Below are positions 1-5,501 of a DNA stretch of 5,501 nt, piece after piece. Position 1 is the first letter of the stretch. Each line of letters begins with the position of its first letter. The stretch comes from Candidatus Latescibacterota bacterium (lineage in GTDB: Bacteria; JAAXHH01; JABIQT01), in assembly GCA_018667995.1 (NCBI GenBank), contig JABIQT010000221.1:1-5501 (forward strand), given 5' to 3'. The notes below the pieces were generated by a model. That model did no database searches. It saw only the letters and a list, made by a program, of their open reading frames with translations, and had not been told where the DNA came from. Made by a program: the position numbers and the translations under genes.

Positions 1-622
1 CGTAGGAATACCCGTAAACCATCACCGGGTGGCATCCATAGCTGAACAGCAGGCATCGAGCGGTACTTCCTTCTGCGCGCAATTCCAGAATACCCAGATC
101 CGGGTTGATATATCCAGTTTCGTTGGGTCGAAGCCCCATCGTCCCCGTATCATCCCGATTACGTCGATTGATGCCAATCCATGATTCCCCATTACGTGCC
201 GAGATGGTAACCGCCACGCAAGACTTCTGAGCCACAACGGCGGCACTACAGATGGTTTGCTGCAGCCAAAGGTCATATGCTGCCATAGCGGCAGTTTCAG
301 GTATCAAGGTCGCGTACTTGTCGATATTAGTCATGGGGCCACTGTGCGTATGTGAGAAATTCAATATCACCGCATCACATGGTGTGCCCGTCAAAGAAGA
401 CAGGTCGTTTCTCAGCAGTATTGAGGATCCGAGAGAGAGGCCAATGAGATCCAAGGAGACCAGAAGCAGCCGGCTGCCGGTTGCGTCCTCAATGTAAGTA
501 ACATGAGCCTCGAGGGGATCCAGAACTGATGCGCCAGGTGTGAAGCGCACTCCCCTCCCTCCCATTGGCAATCCCAACGGTGGTGTGATCTCAATCCGAG
601 ACCATCCTGCTCTGGCCGACAT
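1..622 (-). CDS. Neutral/alkaline ceramidase-family hydrolase, N-terminal part (cut by window edge)
   Basis: The frame is open from ATG at 622 to the left edge, giving 207 residues without a stop; the C-terminal part lies outside. The protein resembles the N-terminal domain of neutral/alkaline non-lysosomal ceramidases, zinc amidases that release a fatty acid from an N-acyl group. Visible marks are the opening 'EITPPLGLPMGG' (residues 11-22), 'LVSLDLIGL' (54-62), the zinc-site motif 'SHTHSGP' (90-96), 'INRR' (151-154) and 'YGCHPV' (195-200), whose His198 fits the second metal histidine. The remaining metal ligands expected further on cannot be checked. There is no signal peptide, since the family domain starts within about ten residues of Met1, so the enzyme is probably cytoplasmic, unlike classical secreted ceramidases. 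Many bacterial members of this family have unknown substrates, so ceramide is not assured. The start lies 23 bases after the dehydrogenase stop, which suggests co-transcription. Family assignment is fairly sure; substrate is unknown. Confidence 0.85.
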   Translation of the reverse strand, partial: MSARAGWSRIEITPPLGLPMGGRGVRFTPGASVLDPLEAHVTYIEDATGSRLLLVSLDLIGLSLGSSILLRNDLSSLTGTPCDAVILNFSHTHSGPMTNIDKYATLIPETAAMAAYDLWLQQTICSAAVVAQKSCVAVTISARNGESWIGINRRNRDDTGTMGLRPNETGYINPDLGILELRAEGSTARCLLFSYGCHPVMVYGYSY

Positions 623-628
623 ACCTTT

Positions 629-634
629 CCCCCT
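629..634 (-). promoter_or_regulatory. Ribosome binding site of the ceramidase-like gene
   Basis: On the minus strand AGGGGG lies 6 bases before the ATG at 622, inside the short gap after the dehydrogenase stop codon. It supports this start for a gene whose end is not in the window. Confidence 0.55.
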
Positions 635-645
635 GGTGCCTTCTG

Positions 646-1713
646 TCATGGCGCCACCGCTACACCGCAGAACTTCTGCGTCCTGGCCAAGGCGACAGCC
701 TCGTCGATGCGGGAAAGTGGTATTGGAGGACTGACCAGTCGATCGTAAGGGAAATGACCTCGCGTCTTCTCAAGGAATTCAATCCCTTGCTGGAGATGTA
801 CAGGGCTGTAGTTGTGGATGCCCTGAATAGTAACACACTTCCTGATGATCTGCTCGCCCGTCACCGGCAATGGGGAGTTCGGATGTACCATCCCCACAAA
901 GCTGTAGTATCCGCCTGTCCTCATCAGTTCCAGGCCCTGTGCGACCAGCTGAGAAGCGCCTGCCATCTCCAAAACCACGTCCACTCCGTCGGGAGCACAC
1001 CGAAAGACATTGGCCCGGTTGACGGGCCATGATTCTTCTCGGATATCCAACGGAATTCCACCAAAGTCAGCTACCAGACTCAGGCGTTCGATATTGATGT
1101 CGGAGCAGAAGACATGTTCAACGCCCATTTCCTTAAGGTAGGCGCAGGCATAGAGTCCCAGCATCCCGGCGCCCTGTACCATTGCAGAGCGAATGGTTGA
1201 TGGCATCCTTGATACGGCATTACAGACCGTGGAGAGTGCACAGTTCGCTGGCGCGGCAACGGCGTCTGGCATCCCTACCGGTATCTTTACAACAGTGGTG
1301 CCCGGCCTAAGGATGATATGTGAAGCGTAGCAACCATTGAGCCCCGTGCCATCCGTGACAGGGGCGTGGCCATATTTGAACACGCGCTCACACTTTTCGG
1401 GAAGCGCATACTCTTTGCAGTAGCTACACGCACCGCAACTATCTGCAATGGTCCACGTGATCCGATCGTCGACGGCTAATCCATCAATTGTACCGCCTAT
1501 AGCGACTACTCTCCCAACCGCTTCATGACCTAATACAAGTGGCGTTGGTTCGCTTCTTTGACCGCTGATGGTGTGCATGTCCGACCCGCAGATAGTAGCC
1601 AGGAGGATTTCAACAAGCACAGCTCCGGTCTCCAGTTGATGAGGAAGTTCGATGGTGTCGGAACGCAGCGAAATATCAGGCCCATCAAAGATCTGGACTT
1701 GGGCGCTACTCAT
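646..1713 (-). CDS. Zinc-dependent alcohol dehydrogenase, phosphonate-catabolism-associated type
   Basis: This is a medium-chain NAD(P)-dependent alcohol dehydrogenase of 355 residues from the chosen start. Catalytic zinc ligands are Cys42 in 'CGSDMH', His63-Glu64 in 'GHEAVG', and probably Cys158 in 'ANCALS'. The structural zinc site is complete with Cys93, Cys96, Cys99 and Cys108. The Rossmann motif 'GAGMLG' is at 181-186, and Asp205 at the end of the next strand favours NAD over NADP. The pattern resembles the clade described as a putative phosphonate catabolism-associated alcohol dehydrogenase (TIGR03366, from memory), and phnX lies two genes upstream. Its substrate is not established: oxidation of a hydroxyalkyl-phosphonate to phosphonoacetaldehyde, or turnover of acetaldehyde, would both fit. 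An in-frame ATG at 1740 would add nine residues, but its Shine-Dalgarno is only one base away and lies in a hairpin; similarity to the family begins just after 1713, where a weak GGGA lies six bases upstream. Enzyme class is sure, exact role less so. Confidence 0.9.
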   Translation of the reverse strand: MSSAQVQIFDGPDISLRSDTIELPHQLETGAVLVEILLATICGSDMHTISGQRSEPTPLVLGHEAVGRVVAIGGTIDGLAVDDRITWTIADSCGACSYCKEYALPEKCERVFKYGHAPVTDGTGLNGCYASHIILRPGTTVVKIPVGMPDAVAAPANCALSTVCNAVSRMPSTIRSAMVQGAGMLGLYACAYLKEMGVEHVFCSDINIERLSLVADFGGIPLDIREESWPVNRANVFRCAPDGVDVVLEMAGASQLVAQGLELMRTGGYYSFVGMVHPNSPLPVTGEQIIRKCVTIQGIHNYSPVHLQQGIEFLEKTRGHFPYDRLVSPPIPLSRIDEAVALARTQKFCGVAVAP

Positions 1714-1731
1714 AGCTTTTCCCGAGGAAAG

Positions 1732-1745
1732 AGGACGCATGTCCT
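1732..1745 (-). repeat. Small inverted repeat at the dehydrogenase start
   Basis: The minus-strand RNA reads AGGAC-AUGC-GUCCU, a perfect 5-bp stem with a 4-base loop. The loop holds the upstream candidate start codon (1740) and the stem holds most of its GAAGGA Shine-Dalgarno. It would hide that start and leave the ATG at 1713 as the likelier one, or it could modulate translation. It is short enough to be chance. Confidence 0.35.
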
Positions 1746-1832
1746 TCAGATATATTCATAGGGATGAACTTCTCTGCCGCATCTGGCTCATTGAGAAGTC
1801 TACGATCGCCATCTATCAATCTGATGTTTGAA

Positions 1833-3110
1833 TTAAAAAGGCACCCCGGATGCCTGCCAGAGGCCACACAGCATCACGGTAAGCCCGCTCAGACTGGCCA
1901 GTACAAACAGCGCCAATTTTCCCAGGTATAGCGGTGGGACCTGAAACGTGGCATATAGGAGAACTGGGTGCCGCAGGAAATTCCGCAGTCGGCGGTAGCT
2001 GAGGTTGCGTGGATATCCGAACTTGTATGCCAGGACAAGGTCGCCTCGCAGATAGCCATTGATTCGTAGTGAGAATTCCGAGGCGTCTCGCTCCCTAATC
2101 TCGCCAGCATCCGGATCATATTGCTTCACACGGCAGGTGCTTAGAAGTCCCATATCCACCAACCTCTTTATATCCAGCGTATGCAGCATTCTGCCATCGC
2201 CGCTGTACACACAGGAAACACCGGACTGCGGGTCTACGTAGGCCCAGCAACCTTGATCCTGCATCCAACACTCGCACACGTAGTGACCGGTGAGTTTGAG
2301 AGGACCGAACATCCCTGCCATGTCGACGAGACGCGTGGGTATCCCCGCGGCATTAGCGAACAGGTAAAATACCAGGGCGCTATTCTCGCAGAAACCATGG
2401 CTCCGGCCGGATGTAAGCTCCTCGTAGGTTCGCATGGGCGAGGCGTCAAGCAGTTCATCGTTGGGAAGCCCACCTGTGCCCTGCAAGTCTGCCATAACTG
2501 CGACGAAAACGGCGTTCAGTCTCTGAGAGGGTTGAGCGGTCAGATCAATGCGATCTTCAAGGATGCTTCGCGCATGTATCATGTCCAGATCATGAGACGG
2601 CAGTCCGGCCCAATCGCGAATGCTGTGAGGCATTGAAGAACTGAACTTGTAGGTACTTTTCGGGGAATAGTAATTGTCGGGCCAGGAGAGATTTGCCTCG
2701 GCGTATTTCTCCCGTGGATAGAACTGGACCGTGATTTCCATCGGTACGACCAGATCAGAATCATTGGGCACGAATCGATACGATTCCGTGAGCTCGTGAT
2801 CAGGAAAACATATTTCAGGATGCTGACTGTGGGTGACCTTACCGTCTGTCAGAGAAATGATCTGCCAGGAGTCGGTCGGAATCTCAGGCAGGAATTCAAA
2901 ACGAAGCGTCCTATGCGCCGTCAGTACCGTCGTTCGAATGATGGGGCGCTCGGCTACGTTGTATATCTCGCCCTCGGAGGCTTGACGGCTATGGTAGTCG
3001 AATTTCCGCCATCTCGGATCCGCGTATGTTCGGGTATATGTAAATCGGATCATCATGACAGATCCGAGGAACAGCAGTAAGGCGACAAAAAAGAGCATGG
3101 GGCCATCCAT
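1833..3110 (-). CDS. Membrane-anchored transglutaminase-like protein
   Basis: The protein has 425 residues. A hydrophobic segment at about 5-22 follows a very short N-terminus and acts as an uncleaved anchor; a second at about 396-417 lies near the C-terminus. The large part between them would sit on one side of the membrane, most likely outside the cytoplasm. Residues about 190-305 form a transglutaminase-like core (the fold of PF01841) with the expected order of catalytic residues: Cys241 in 'HGFCENSA', His276 in 'TGHYVCECW' and Asp293 in 'YVDPQSG'. 'AAGIPTRLV' (254-262) is a typical family stretch. Bacterial members may be proteases, amidases or cross-linkers, so the reaction is not known. 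Residues 55-160 look beta-rich, perhaps a substrate-binding region. The start is 19 bases after the phnX stop, with no clear Shine-Dalgarno, so translation may be coupled to phnX. Met5 (3098) is an alternative start. Its link to phosphonate use is unexplained. Confidence 0.85.
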   Translation of the reverse strand: MDGPMLFFVALLLFLGSVMMIRFTYTRTYADPRWRKFDYHSRQASEGEIYNVAERPIIRTTVLTAHRTLRFEFLPEIPTDSWQIISLTDGKVTHSQHPEICFPDHELTESYRFVPNDSDLVVPMEITVQFYPREKYAEANLSWPDNYYSPKSTYKFSSSMPHSIRDWAGLPSHDLDMIHARSILEDRIDLTAQPSQRLNAVFVAVMADLQGTGGLPNDELLDASPMRTYEELTSGRSHGFCENSALVFYLFANAAGIPTRLVDMAGMFGPLKLTGHYVCECWMQDQGCWAYVDPQSGVSCVYSGDGRMLHTLDIKRLVDMGLLSTCRVKQYDPDAGEIRERDASEFSLRINGYLRGDLVLAYKFGYPRNLSYRRLRNFLRHPVLLYATFQVPPLYLGKLALFVLASLSGLTVMLCGLWQASGVPF

Positions 3111-3129
3111 TGAGTTCAGAGGTGCCGAC

Positions 3130-3960
3130 TTAGGATCGCTCTCCGCGGCTTAATCTCCCATTGATCGTATCGATAATTGGTAATACGTCTGCGATACCAT
3201 CCACAACATAGTGGGCCCCTGTCTGATACATTCTTGTTCGTGCTGCATCAAGTCGTTCATCCAGCTCATCTTTTGGCAGAGCATTCACCTCGGCCTCGTT
3301 AAGCCCGATTTCGTTGCCCGTTTTAGCCAGACCGATCGTCCACATGCCTGCGTTCAATCCCTCTGCTATATCGGGAAGTGTATCACCGATTTTCACTATG
3401 GACTCCATCGGATATATTCCCAGATTCATGGCATTCTGGATGCACATCCACGGATCCGGCCGCCCCGCAGGAACATCAGTCGCGCAAACGGTAGAATCGG
3501 GTTCGTAACCCCTTTTCTTGGCCTCGCTAAGGAGTATTTCCATCATCTCACCGGTATAACCTGTTGTTGAACCGATCTTAAGGCCACGCTCACGTATTGC
3601 TGCCACCGTCTCCAATGTTCCTGGGATCAGATCACTATAGTCGGCCAGGCAATCAAGCTGCAAGGGTACGAACTCCTTAAACATGGCTTCCACATCTTCT
3701 TCGTTGGGTCTGGAGCCGTGAACACGCTCCCATTCCGCGGCTACACGCTCGATCCGCGTGATCTGTCGTATGTGGACCATCTTGTGGGCCCCCATGGGCA
3801 GTCGGGCCTCGGCAATGGAGATTGGTACTTGCCTGCGTTTAAATACTTCCATGAATACCACAGCAGGCGCATAGCACCCATAATCCATCGTGGTTCCAGC
3901 CCAATCGAGTAGGACTGCTTTCAGTTCCCCGGTGTAGCACCTGCTGTATGTGAACGACAT
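3130..3960 (-). CDS. phnX: Phosphonoacetaldehyde hydrolase (phosphonatase)
   Basis: PhnX cleaves the carbon-phosphorus bond of phosphonoacetaldehyde to give acetaldehyde and phosphate, usually as the second step of 2-aminoethylphosphonate breakdown after the transaminase PhnW. It is a cytoplasmic HAD-superfamily enzyme. The 276 residues match the usual length of about 270. Asp19 in 'LLDWAGTT' is the nucleophile, with Ala21 where most HAD phosphatases carry a second Asp, a phosphonatase hallmark. Lys60 in 'MGAHK' fits the Schiff-base lysine of the cap domain. 'STTGYT' (131-136) is motif II, 'AGRPDPWM' (165-172) holds the conserved Arg167, and 'GDTLPDI' (192-198) holds the Mg-binding acidic residues. 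The start has a good Shine-Dalgarno. The gene precedes the transglutaminase-like gene by 19 bases. No phnW is seen here, so the substrate must come from elsewhere in the genome or by another reaction. Assignment is firm. Confidence 0.96.
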   Translation of the reverse strand: MSFTYSRCYTGELKAVLLDWAGTTMDYGCYAPAVVFMEVFKRRQVPISIAEARLPMGAHKMVHIRQITRIERVAAEWERVHGSRPNEEDVEAMFKEFVPLQLDCLADYSDLIPGTLETVAAIRERGLKIGSTTGYTGEMMEILLSEAKKRGYEPDSTVCATDVPAGRPDPWMCIQNAMNLGIYPMESIVKIGDTLPDIAEGLNAGMWTIGLAKTGNEIGLNEAEVNALPKDELDERLDAARTRMYQTGAHYVVDGIADVLPIIDTINGRLSRGERS

Positions 3961-4088
3961 ATCTGTTTCCTTATAGCGAGATTGAACCTTTACGATTAAC
4001 GAGTATTCTATACCATGATTTCCAAAGGATCCGGTATTGAAATACGCTGCGACTCTTAGGGTTACATCGATCTGTTAAATCAGAAATC
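3961..4088. other. Spacer between the alpha/beta hydrolase gene and phnX
   Basis: These 128 bases carry no supported gene. They hold the phnX ribosome binding site and a few short imperfect dyads, but no stem followed by a T-tract. An AT-rich TAGAAT on the minus strand could be a -10 element for phnX, but no -35 partner stands at the right distance. The gap is long enough for phnX to have its own promoter, so co-transcription with the hydrolase gene is not certain. Confidence 0.5.
3968..3972 (-). promoter_or_regulatory. Ribosome binding site of phnX
   Basis: AAGGA lies 7 bases before the ATG at 3960. It is the best-placed Shine-Dalgarno in the window and fixes the phnX start. Confidence 0.75.
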
Positions 4089-5111
4089 TCAATATAGGTA
4101 CCTATGCAGCCACGCCTGAGTCTCTCTTGCCATATTAGCGGAATACGCGTGTTTGCCCCCAAACCACTTACAGCAATATTGACCGGCCGCACCAAGACGT
4201 TCGTAGAGATGGGATAGCTCTTCACCAACTGCCCTCGTCTGGTCCGTATTGGGAAAAAACTGATCCTCGGAGGCCCGTAAATCCAGAAAAGGACGTGGGG
4301 CAATAAGGGCGGCGACGTAATCCAAGTCAAAAGGAAGCATTTCGCCGTGGCATGATCCAGCCAGGTTCGGAAAGTTATAGGATTGTACGAGATTCTCCAC
4401 GACGCCGCCTTGCAGGCCACGCAAAGGCGACCATCCACAGACAGATACCAGCACAGAGATTCGAGTATCCAGCGCCGCGCCGAGCGACGTCATCTGTCCC
4501 CCTTGTGACCAGCCCGTGCATCCGATCCTGGCCTGATCCACTTCGGGGACCTCTATGAGAAAATCCACCGCGCGCGACACATCCCATGTCGACAGGCCCA
4601 CACGCGTCCAATCGGGATGCCTCTGATCCAGTGAGGCGGTATCATAGGGCTTAAGCCCTGGTGAGGTGCGCTCCCCGGCGCACGGATAATCGGGACAGAG
4701 GGCGATGTATCCGAGTCGTGCGAGGTCGGCACCATAGGCCTCTGGATTGCCCGGATCCCACGGCCCCGCAAGCCCTGCCGGACCGTCCTTCCCCCAATTG
4801 GGCGTCATGAACGAGCCAGGGAGACAGATGACAGCGGGCATCGGCCTCTCAACCAATTTCGGCACCAGTAGCCACGCCCAGACGAAGTCATCGGAATCGT
4901 TTCCGTACCGAACCTTACGCCTCCAGTAGCCGCCTTCATCTGTTTGATAGAGGGTAACGGCATTCAGACCAGGCTCCCTATCAAATACAGGGAACGCAAG
5001 GGTCTTCTGCAGCCAGGCCCGGACCTCTGAATTCAAATCAGACAATCTACCAAGGTCATCAGGAACCGCGAACGGTGTGCTCTTGAAGAAAGGGGTTTCG
5101 GCTGGTGACAT
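4089..5111 (-). CDS. Alpha/beta hydrolase, dienelactone hydrolase/acetylxylan-esterase-like
   Basis: The protein has 340 residues, no signal peptide and no membrane segment, so it should be cytoplasmic. It has the alpha/beta hydrolase signs: 'PAVICLPGS' (92-100) for the strand and oxyanion loop, 'GYIALCPDYPCAGER' (134-148), the nucleophile elbow 'GWSQGG' (200-205) with Ser202, Asp283 in 'RASEDQFFP' as the likely acid, and His321 in 'GGKHAYS' as the base. The overall pattern resembles the larger dienelactone hydrolase/acetylxylan-esterase-like group (Abhydrolase_7-like, from memory), often found near carbohydrate-use genes. Substrate is unknown; an ester or similar acyl bond is expected. The ATG at 5111 is the first possible ATG, since an in-frame TGA lies at 5115-5117; its Shine-Dalgarno is weak (GGATG, 4 bases away). 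It is the first gene of the minus-strand series and faces a divergent gene. Fold and triad are sure, function is not. Confidence 0.88.
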   Translation of the reverse strand: MSPAETPFFKSTPFAVPDDLGRLSDLNSEVRAWLQKTLAFPVFDREPGLNAVTLYQTDEGGYWRRKVRYGNDSDDFVWAWLLVPKLVERPMPAVICLPGSFMTPNWGKDGPAGLAGPWDPGNPEAYGADLARLGYIALCPDYPCAGERTSPGLKPYDTASLDQRHPDWTRVGLSTWDVSRAVDFLIEVPEVDQARIGCTGWSQGGQMTSLGAALDTRISVLVSVCGWSPLRGLQGGVVENLVQSYNFPNLAGSCHGEMLPFDLDYVAALIAPRPFLDLRASEDQFFPNTDQTRAVGEELSHLYERLGAAGQYCCKWFGGKHAYSANMARETQAWLHRYLY

Positions 5112-5263: not shown

Positions 5264-5293
5264 TTGACATGACTCAAGTCCCATCGATACAAT
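5264..5293 (+). promoter_or_regulatory. Near-consensus sigma-70 promoter for the right-edge gene
   Basis: A perfect TTGACA (5264-5269) is followed after 18 bases by TACAAT (5288-5293), five of six matches to the -10 consensus. Transcription would start near 5300, leaving a leader of about 90 bases before the ATG at 5391. The spacer holds a small dyad, GACT-CA-AGTC (5271-5280), where a repressor could bind between the two hexamers. The promoter is the strongest in the window. Confidence 0.65.
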
Positions 5294-5390
5294 GGCCGAA
5301 GCACTCTAGGCATCTGCACGCCATTCCAGTGTCCCCAATTTAGTACCGTTAACCCACTATTCTTATACATAAACATAATCTTGTAACCTT

Positions 5391-5501
5391 ATGGCCTTCA
5401 AAAAGATAACTGCCGTCCTGATTATAACCGCGTTGGTACTGTGGTATCTCTATCCGTCCAAAACCGTATATCAGGATTCCGATGCAAATGTGGTGGAGAT
5501 C
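5391..5501 (+). CDS. N-terminus of a membrane-anchored or exported protein, perhaps a transporter solute-binding protein (cut by window edge)
   Basis: Only 37 residues are visible. A basic start (Met-Ala-Phe-Lys-Lys) is followed by a hydrophobic stretch at about 6-21 ending 'LWYLYP', then a polar segment with 'YQDSDANVVEI'. This is a signal peptide or signal anchor. There is no lipobox cysteine and no obvious small-x-small cleavage site, so an uncleaved anchor is possible. A polar linker leading into a 'VVEI' strand is reminiscent of ABC-transporter solute-binding proteins of the sugar type, but 37 residues cannot prove this. An in-frame stop at 5376-5378 and no other ATG make 5391 the start; no Shine-Dalgarno precedes it. 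It is driven by the promoter at 5264-5293 and is divergent from the phosphonatase series. The identification as a coding start is likely, the function tentative. Confidence 0.6.
   Translation, partial: MAFKKITAVLIITALVLWYLYPSKTVYQDSDANVVEI

Follow-up and report, generated by a model that had tools for sequence, protein, structure and literature searches.

In the PhnW-PhnX (phosphonatase) pathway, PhnW converts 2-aminoethylphosphonate (AEP) to phosphonoacetaldehyde, which the hydrolase PhnX splits with acetaldehyde as a product (PMC10590968); in another branch phosphonoacetaldehyde passes to PhnY (phosphonoacetaldehyde dehydrogenase) and PhnA (phosphonoacetate hydrolase), which yields acetate and no acetaldehyde. 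Alcohol dehydrogenases (ADHs) of family TIGR03366 (HpnZ) bear the name 'putative phosphonate catabolism associated alcohol dehydrogenase', and the family is a hypothetical equivalog with no substrate assigned. Considered here is a DNA stretch of 5,501 bases from Candidatus Latescibacterota bacterium (assembly GCA_018667995.1, contig JABIQT010000221.1; the window), in which phnX and an adh gene of the TIGR03366 kind lie on one strand; the dehydrogenase encoded there probably enables use of 2-hydroxyethylphosphonate (HEP) as a phosphorus source. The window is an entire contig (C938) of a metagenome-assembled genome (MAG), G000, which comprises 6.06 Mb in 1165 contigs and is 85% complete.

Of the phosphorus in dissolved marine polysaccharides of high molecular weight, about 20% is in HEP and methylphosphonate esters; the established use of the HEP esters is via C-P lyase, with release of ethylene (PMC5649143, PMC9381506). 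As a 2025 paper observes, oxidation of HEP would lead straight into the hydrolytic pathways; PbfF, the 2-amino-1-hydroxyethylphosphonate (HAEP) racemase, was tested there and excluded as the HEP dehydrogenase (PMC12366243). PbfF and the window ADH would both be accessory NAD-dependent enzymes feeding a hydrolytic phosphonate pathway, but PbfF belongs to pfam02826 whereas the window enzyme is a zinc-dependent medium-chain dehydrogenase. The word 'hydroxyethyl' does not occur in a 2023 review of phosphonate degradation, and no named HEP dehydrogenase was found in the open-access literature searched; subscription papers lay outside that search, and a prior description is possible.

That the window is a phosphonatase locus, as the original prediction had it, is borne out by the score and catalytic residues of its PhnX. 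The protein scores 344.6 bits against TIGR01422 (curated cut-off 220), aligns over its full length to the solved PhnX structure 2iof (E 9e-84), and in that alignment keeps the DWAGTT nucleophile motif and the equivalent of the Schiff-base Lys53 (K60 in MGAHK); by these features it is a genuine phosphonoacetaldehyde hydrolase. The flanks had seemed the place to look for phnW; none lies on the window contig, and PhnW is instead encoded on contig C133 of the same genome (499 bits, cut-off 360.8). Among 15 relatives from the phylum only G001 has phnX (an orthologue 76% identical), and it too has PhnW above the cut-off; no other relative searched in the phylum has PhnW, such that G000 and G001 are the two genomes with both genes. 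The ordinary AEP pathway, judged from these matches, is thus present in G000, with phnW off the window contig. A survey of 80 phnX loci drawn from many phyla found phnW no more than 6 kb from phnX in 31 of them. The window accordingly resembles the known pathway in having a full PhnX and a PhnW in the same genome, but differs in that an alcohol dehydrogenase, and not phnW, is found in the phnX locus, which suggests an alcohol as a second entry point.

The case for the dehydrogenase is carried by its relatives. A scan for the ADH family only, and thus without bias toward phosphonate genes, covered 387 genomes of the phylum, probably Verrucomicrobiota, to which the genome of locus L022 belongs and gave nine new loci; in six of them PhnA, PhnY or PhnX lies at most about 10 kb away, and the chance of this is roughly 1e-10 to 5e-9 if 1-2% is assumed per random gene. 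Another set of ADH loci came from genomes picked for phnX, so that six of nine is the unbiased figure for the association. The relatives adjoin phnA, phnY or phnX, and the claim that the window enzyme belongs with phosphonate genes therefore stands. Four loci from another phylum (L168, L169, L170, and L172) share one same-strand order: PhoD-like phosphatase, PhnA, major facilitator superfamily (MFS) transporter, ADH, PhnY. PhnA is above its cut-off in both of the operon loci scanned with hidden Markov models (478 and 486 bits), and the PhnY-like proteins of all four have TIGR03250 as their best family, at 604-621 bits, just below the cut-off of 635.65. The MFS proteins belong to the phosphoglycerate/glycerol-phosphate class of transporters, and each of the four PhoD-like proteins has at its N-terminus an RRxF motif of the twin-arginine (Tat) type. 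One split with 100% bootstrap support unites the window ADH, the operon ADHs, and that of Hydrogenedentota locus L147.

The genomes that carry these operons (G294, G239, G274, and G257) are informative for what they lack. PhnW was not found in any of them by a search (TIGR03301, E<=1e-85) that was positive in eight other genomes, nor was phosphoenolpyruvate (PEP) mutase; since one of the four is a single 4.9 Mb contig, the absence of PhnW is not merely assembly loss. With neither enzyme detected, the PhnY and PhnA of these operons must get phosphonoacetaldehyde from elsewhere; the best candidate is the ADH, which would supply it in one step by oxidation of HEP. The sister ADHs thus belong to operons of the PhnY-PhnA branch, whereas the window has PhnX instead.

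Other relatives show more varied surroundings. An ADH of this kind lies within 6 kb of phnX in two of the 80 phnX loci, L022 and L050. L022, from a MAG labelled Lentisphaeria, has on one strand genes for a hydrolase distantly similar to that encoded by the window gene abh, a protein with an HD domain, HpnZ, PhnX, and a 2-hydroxyacid dehydrogenase; this last gene (3464-4429), which follows HpnZ and phnX, is of pfam02826, the family of PbfF. In L164, L165, and L166 an MFS-ADH pair is accompanied by genes for a cytochrome-peroxidase-like protein and, divergently oriented, a PhoD-like protein, and no PhnA, PhnY, or PhnX is nearby. The Hydrogenedentota relative L198 has no phosphonate neighbours. 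In two Poribacteria loci (L149, 6283-10396; L150, 6975-10399) genes for an MFS transporter, HpnZ, and a short PhnA-like phosphodiesterase stand in a row, with a ceramidase-family gene about 3 kb upstream on the opposite strand; the phosphodiesterase of L150 scores 189 bits against TIGR02335, under the cut-off of 407.55, and these short proteins may be a distinct C-P hydrolase.

By family and residues, the window ADH is of the phosphonate-associated kind. TIGR03366 is its best family by a wide interval (313.4 bits, the next family 119), and it shares with HpnZ proteins both the company of phosphonate genes and a set of basic residues: all 22 ADHs of this kind carry R62, K116, K122, H125, and H309, none of which occurs in outgroup medium-chain dehydrogenases, and the closest solved structure, 1vj0, has other residues at all five positions as read from the alignment. 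In comparison with horse liver ADH, the sequence of which was verified against 1adb, R62 pairs in both alignments with Leu57, a residue of the substrate pocket, and the stretch from zinc ligand Cys46 to zinc ligand His67 is gap-free. Phe110, Leu116, and Ile318, also pocket residues, are the probable counterparts of K116, K122, and H309, a correspondence that depends on gap placement and that the automatic alignments did not show. Asp214 of the window enzyme aligns with Asp223 of horse ADH, which is consistent with use of NAD. An AlphaFold model (pLDDT 86, pTM 0.87) predicts an ordinary medium-chain dehydrogenase fold, with a TM-score of 0.89 to 1vj0.

Taken together, the locus is read here, with moderate confidence, as one for scavenging phosphorus from phosphonates, in which the ADH would oxidise HEP to phosphonoacetaldehyde with NAD+ and so give PhnX a second supply of substrate that does not depend on PhnW. 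PhnW would make the same intermediate from AEP, the alcohol and amine entries would converge, and PhnX would split phosphonoacetaldehyde into acetaldehyde and phosphate. In related genomes the same ADH would supply PhnY, with PhnA acting next, and a Tat-exported PhoD-like phosphatase and an MFS transporter would come ahead of it in the route; as a whole, the PhoD-PhnA-MFS-ADH-PhnY operon has the look of a full outside-in pathway for esters of HEP. For G000 itself we infer the substrate, the direction, and the co-regulation of the enzyme. The ceramidase-like and esterase-like genes of the window would be passengers, or would serve an unrelated or other step.

Several observations weigh against this reading. 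The original prediction of a phosphonate-type alcohol dehydrogenase holds as to best family, but the window ADH falls just under the TIGR03366 curated cut-off of 328.1, as do the four sister operon ADHs (312.9-327.4 bits), and it is just 50-54% identical to these. Its closest Hydrogenedentota relative, that of L147 (54%), has no adjoining phosphonate gene. G000 has PhnW, which makes the ADH dispensable for PhnX function, and G001 carries phnX with no such ADH. In the operon genomes another aminotransferase could conceivably have PhnW-like activity. Finally, a possible terminator separates phnX and the transglutaminase-like gene from adh and cer (Table 1), and because this hairpin stands between them the two pairs may be separate transcripts; the total count of terminator-like sites in the window is not above that of shuffled sequences.

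Five genes lie on the minus strand in the order abh, phnX, transglutaminase-like gene, adh, cer, separated by 128, 19, 92, and -4 nt, the last being an overlap of adh and cer. This confirms that genes for PhnX, the dehydrogenase, a ceramidase-family protein, and a hydrolase are closely spaced on one strand, an arrangement described earlier with the transglutaminase-like gene overlooked. A divergent gene on the plus strand, with its start near 5391 and a short hydrophobic N-terminus, runs to the contig edge (region 5264-5501), and a strong promoter-like site, TTGACA-18-TACAAT, lies ahead of it at 5264-5293 on the plus strand.

Table 1. Features of the window, with the evidence on which each assignment rests.
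Feature	Coordinates	Strand	Basis
abh, alpha/beta hydrolase, CE15/acetyl-xylan-esterase-like, 340 aa	4089..5111	-	GCE_fung and AXE1 matches; GWSQG
phnX, phosphonoacetaldehyde hydrolase, 276 aa	3130..3960	-	TIGR01422; alignment to 2iof
Transglutaminase-like protein, 425 aa	1833..3110	-	Transglut_core; hydropathy
Terminator-like hairpin with T tail, over the end of the transglutaminase-like gene	1839..1855	-	Consensus match only
adh, zinc-dependent medium-chain dehydrogenase, TIGR03366 (HpnZ) kind	646..1740	-	TIGR03366; operon relatives; 1vj0 fold
cer, neutral-ceramidase-superfamily protein, N-terminal 216 aa, ends at contig edge	2..649	-	Profile of relatives against 2zws

The transglutaminase-like protein matches Transglut_core at 25.9 bits (cut-off 23), has by hydropathy a transmembrane-like segment at each end, and keeps the Cys/His/Asp triad motifs intact (GFCEN at 239, GHYV at 275, and YVDPQ at 291). 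Its pairing with phnX is the sole adjacency kept in the nearest relative: G001 has the pair in locus L003 (transglutaminase-like gene at 2364-3659, its protein 50% identical) with a gap of 32 nt, against 19 nt in the window, and both phnX-bearing genomes of the order therefore have it. Among the 80 phnX loci such a gene is near phnX in one, L006, which is from the same genome as G001. An AlphaFold model made from a two-sequence input was poor (pLDDT 42).

The two hydrolases of the window are less easily placed. The cer fragment covers 216 of about 450 aa; a search of G000 with a C-terminal profile gave paralogues only, none identifiable as its continuation. The fragment itself has no match to the Pfam family PF04734, even at E 10, and its assignment comes from its relatives: PF04734 matches nine of the ten members of their alignment, and their profile matches the neutral ceramidase structures 2zws (E 3e-37) and 4wgk. 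The zinc-ligand motifs HTHS and CHP are in the part that the window holds; H100, H102, and H207 are invariant and, in the profile of the family, line up with 2zws. What had been called a ceramidase-family amidase is thus a member of that superfamily, by way of its relatives and as a fragment. Its family differs from neutral ceramidase in length (about 450 aa against about 650 aa), and its relatives differ in the active site. The serine of the hexapeptide GDVSPN is the ceramidase nucleophile; the relatives of cer have GNIMPR, GDIRPN, GDINPR, or GDLGPR at this position, with no serine, and the window copy ends before it. The hexapeptide is described as crucial for ceramidase activity (PMC5874051). 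With the zinc histidine motifs kept and this serine missing, the annotation of short bacterial members of the superfamily of about 450 aa (L103-L121 and others) as ceramidases is doubtful. The protein encoded by abh matches GCE_fung at 38.8 bits (cut-off 27) and AXE1 at 37.3 (cut-off 21), with GWSQG as the G-x-S-x-G nucleophile motif, and its best PDB match is the glucuronoyl esterase OtCE15A (52 bits). It has five paralogues in G000; no orthologue was found in the phylum, where the best match outside G000 is about 30% identical, and no match at all was closer than about 39%, a value reached along part of the protein.

The original prediction was that these two enzymes, a ceramidase-like amidase and an esterase-like hydrolase, free the phosphonate from an acylated conjugate such as ceramide aminoethylphosphonate or a phosphonoglycan, and that PhnX then cleaves it. 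The shared strand, the close spacing, and the 4-nt overlap of adh and cer speak for this; so do the alpha/beta hydrolase upstream of HpnZ-phnX in L022 (29% identical to that of the window over 190 aa), the ceramidase-family genes about 3 kb from HpnZ in the two Poribacteria loci, and a CE15 glucuronoyl-esterase-like hydrolase directly downstream of phnW in G001 (L123, 5122-7659, G001:C201). The four-gene set is not conserved, however: L022 is the one locus of the 80 with an abh-similar gene near phnX, none has a ceramidase-family gene there (in one locus such a gene lies on the opposite strand at a distance of 8 kb), and the phnX locus of G001, the sole phnX-bearing relative, lacks dehydrogenase, esterase, and ceramidase-like gene alike and keeps just the phnX-transglutaminase pair. 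For each of the two hydrolases G000 has several paralogues, so that they could more easily have become neighbours by chance, and adjacency is weak evidence. Both proteins also lack export signals (neither has a signal peptide, and abh has no transmembrane segment), in agreement with their earlier description as cytoplasmic. Given this lack of conservation and the loss of the ceramidase serine in the relatives of cer, breakdown of a ceramide or phosphonolipid conjugate is rejected and is regarded as highly unlikely. In an altered form the idea retains a candidate: the exported PhoD-like phosphatase of the related operons, and not an amidase or carboxylesterase, may free the phosphonate.

Other activities of the dehydrogenase have to be set against HEP oxidation. 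The ADH shares its locus with phnX, and reduction of acetaldehyde, the product of PhnX (PMC10590968), to ethanol could be its role; but ADHs of this kind are common to PhnX-type and PhnA-type loci and acetaldehyde is made by PhnX only, which excludes it as a common substrate, and the clade-specific basic pocket residues would be odd for acetaldehyde. With the sister ADHs in the PhnY-PhnA branch, this reading is rejected as unlikely. The enzyme might also run in reverse, as a phosphonoacetaldehyde reductase that makes HEP for biosynthesis, the role suggested for phpC in certain AEP operons; phpC, an iron ADH, has been reported in catabolic operons (PMC9381506), and the PhnW of G000 would provide phosphonoacetaldehyde. 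This is very improbable: no PEP mutase was found in G000 or the operon genomes, the latter also have no PhnW and hence no phosphonoacetaldehyde to reduce, and PhnY, PhnA, and PhnX alike consume that compound. Phosphonate biosynthesis in general is rejected as unlikely, PEP mutase having been found in neither G000 nor G001. Some other hydroxylated phosphonate (for example hydroxypropylphosphonate, dihydroxyethylphosphonate, or 3-phosphonolactate) is an unlikely substrate. TIGR03366 is broad, its members lie beside PhnA alone, an MFS transporter alone, or PhnX, and the substrate may vary by branch; however, in the sister operons the ADH is followed by PhnY, the substrate of which, phosphonoacetaldehyde, is one oxidation away from HEP, while the other substrates require additional steps that are not in the operon.

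Oxidation of HEP thus remains the preferred role for the window ADH. For the family, whether a TIGR03366-like ADH is the missing HEP dehydrogenase, opening a hydrolytic alcohol-entry route that bypasses PhnW, continues with PhnX or with PhnY plus PhnA, and in some bacteria would include PhoD-like release from polysaccharide esters and MFS import, is on the comparisons made here an evenly balanced proposal. If true, the HEP route would give phosphate and avoid the ethylene released when C-P lyase acts on HEP. A zinc-dependent ADH family that recurs next to PhnX or to PhnY and PhnA, in some cases where the genome lacks PhnW, is a concrete and cheaply testable candidate for the HEP dehydrogenase.

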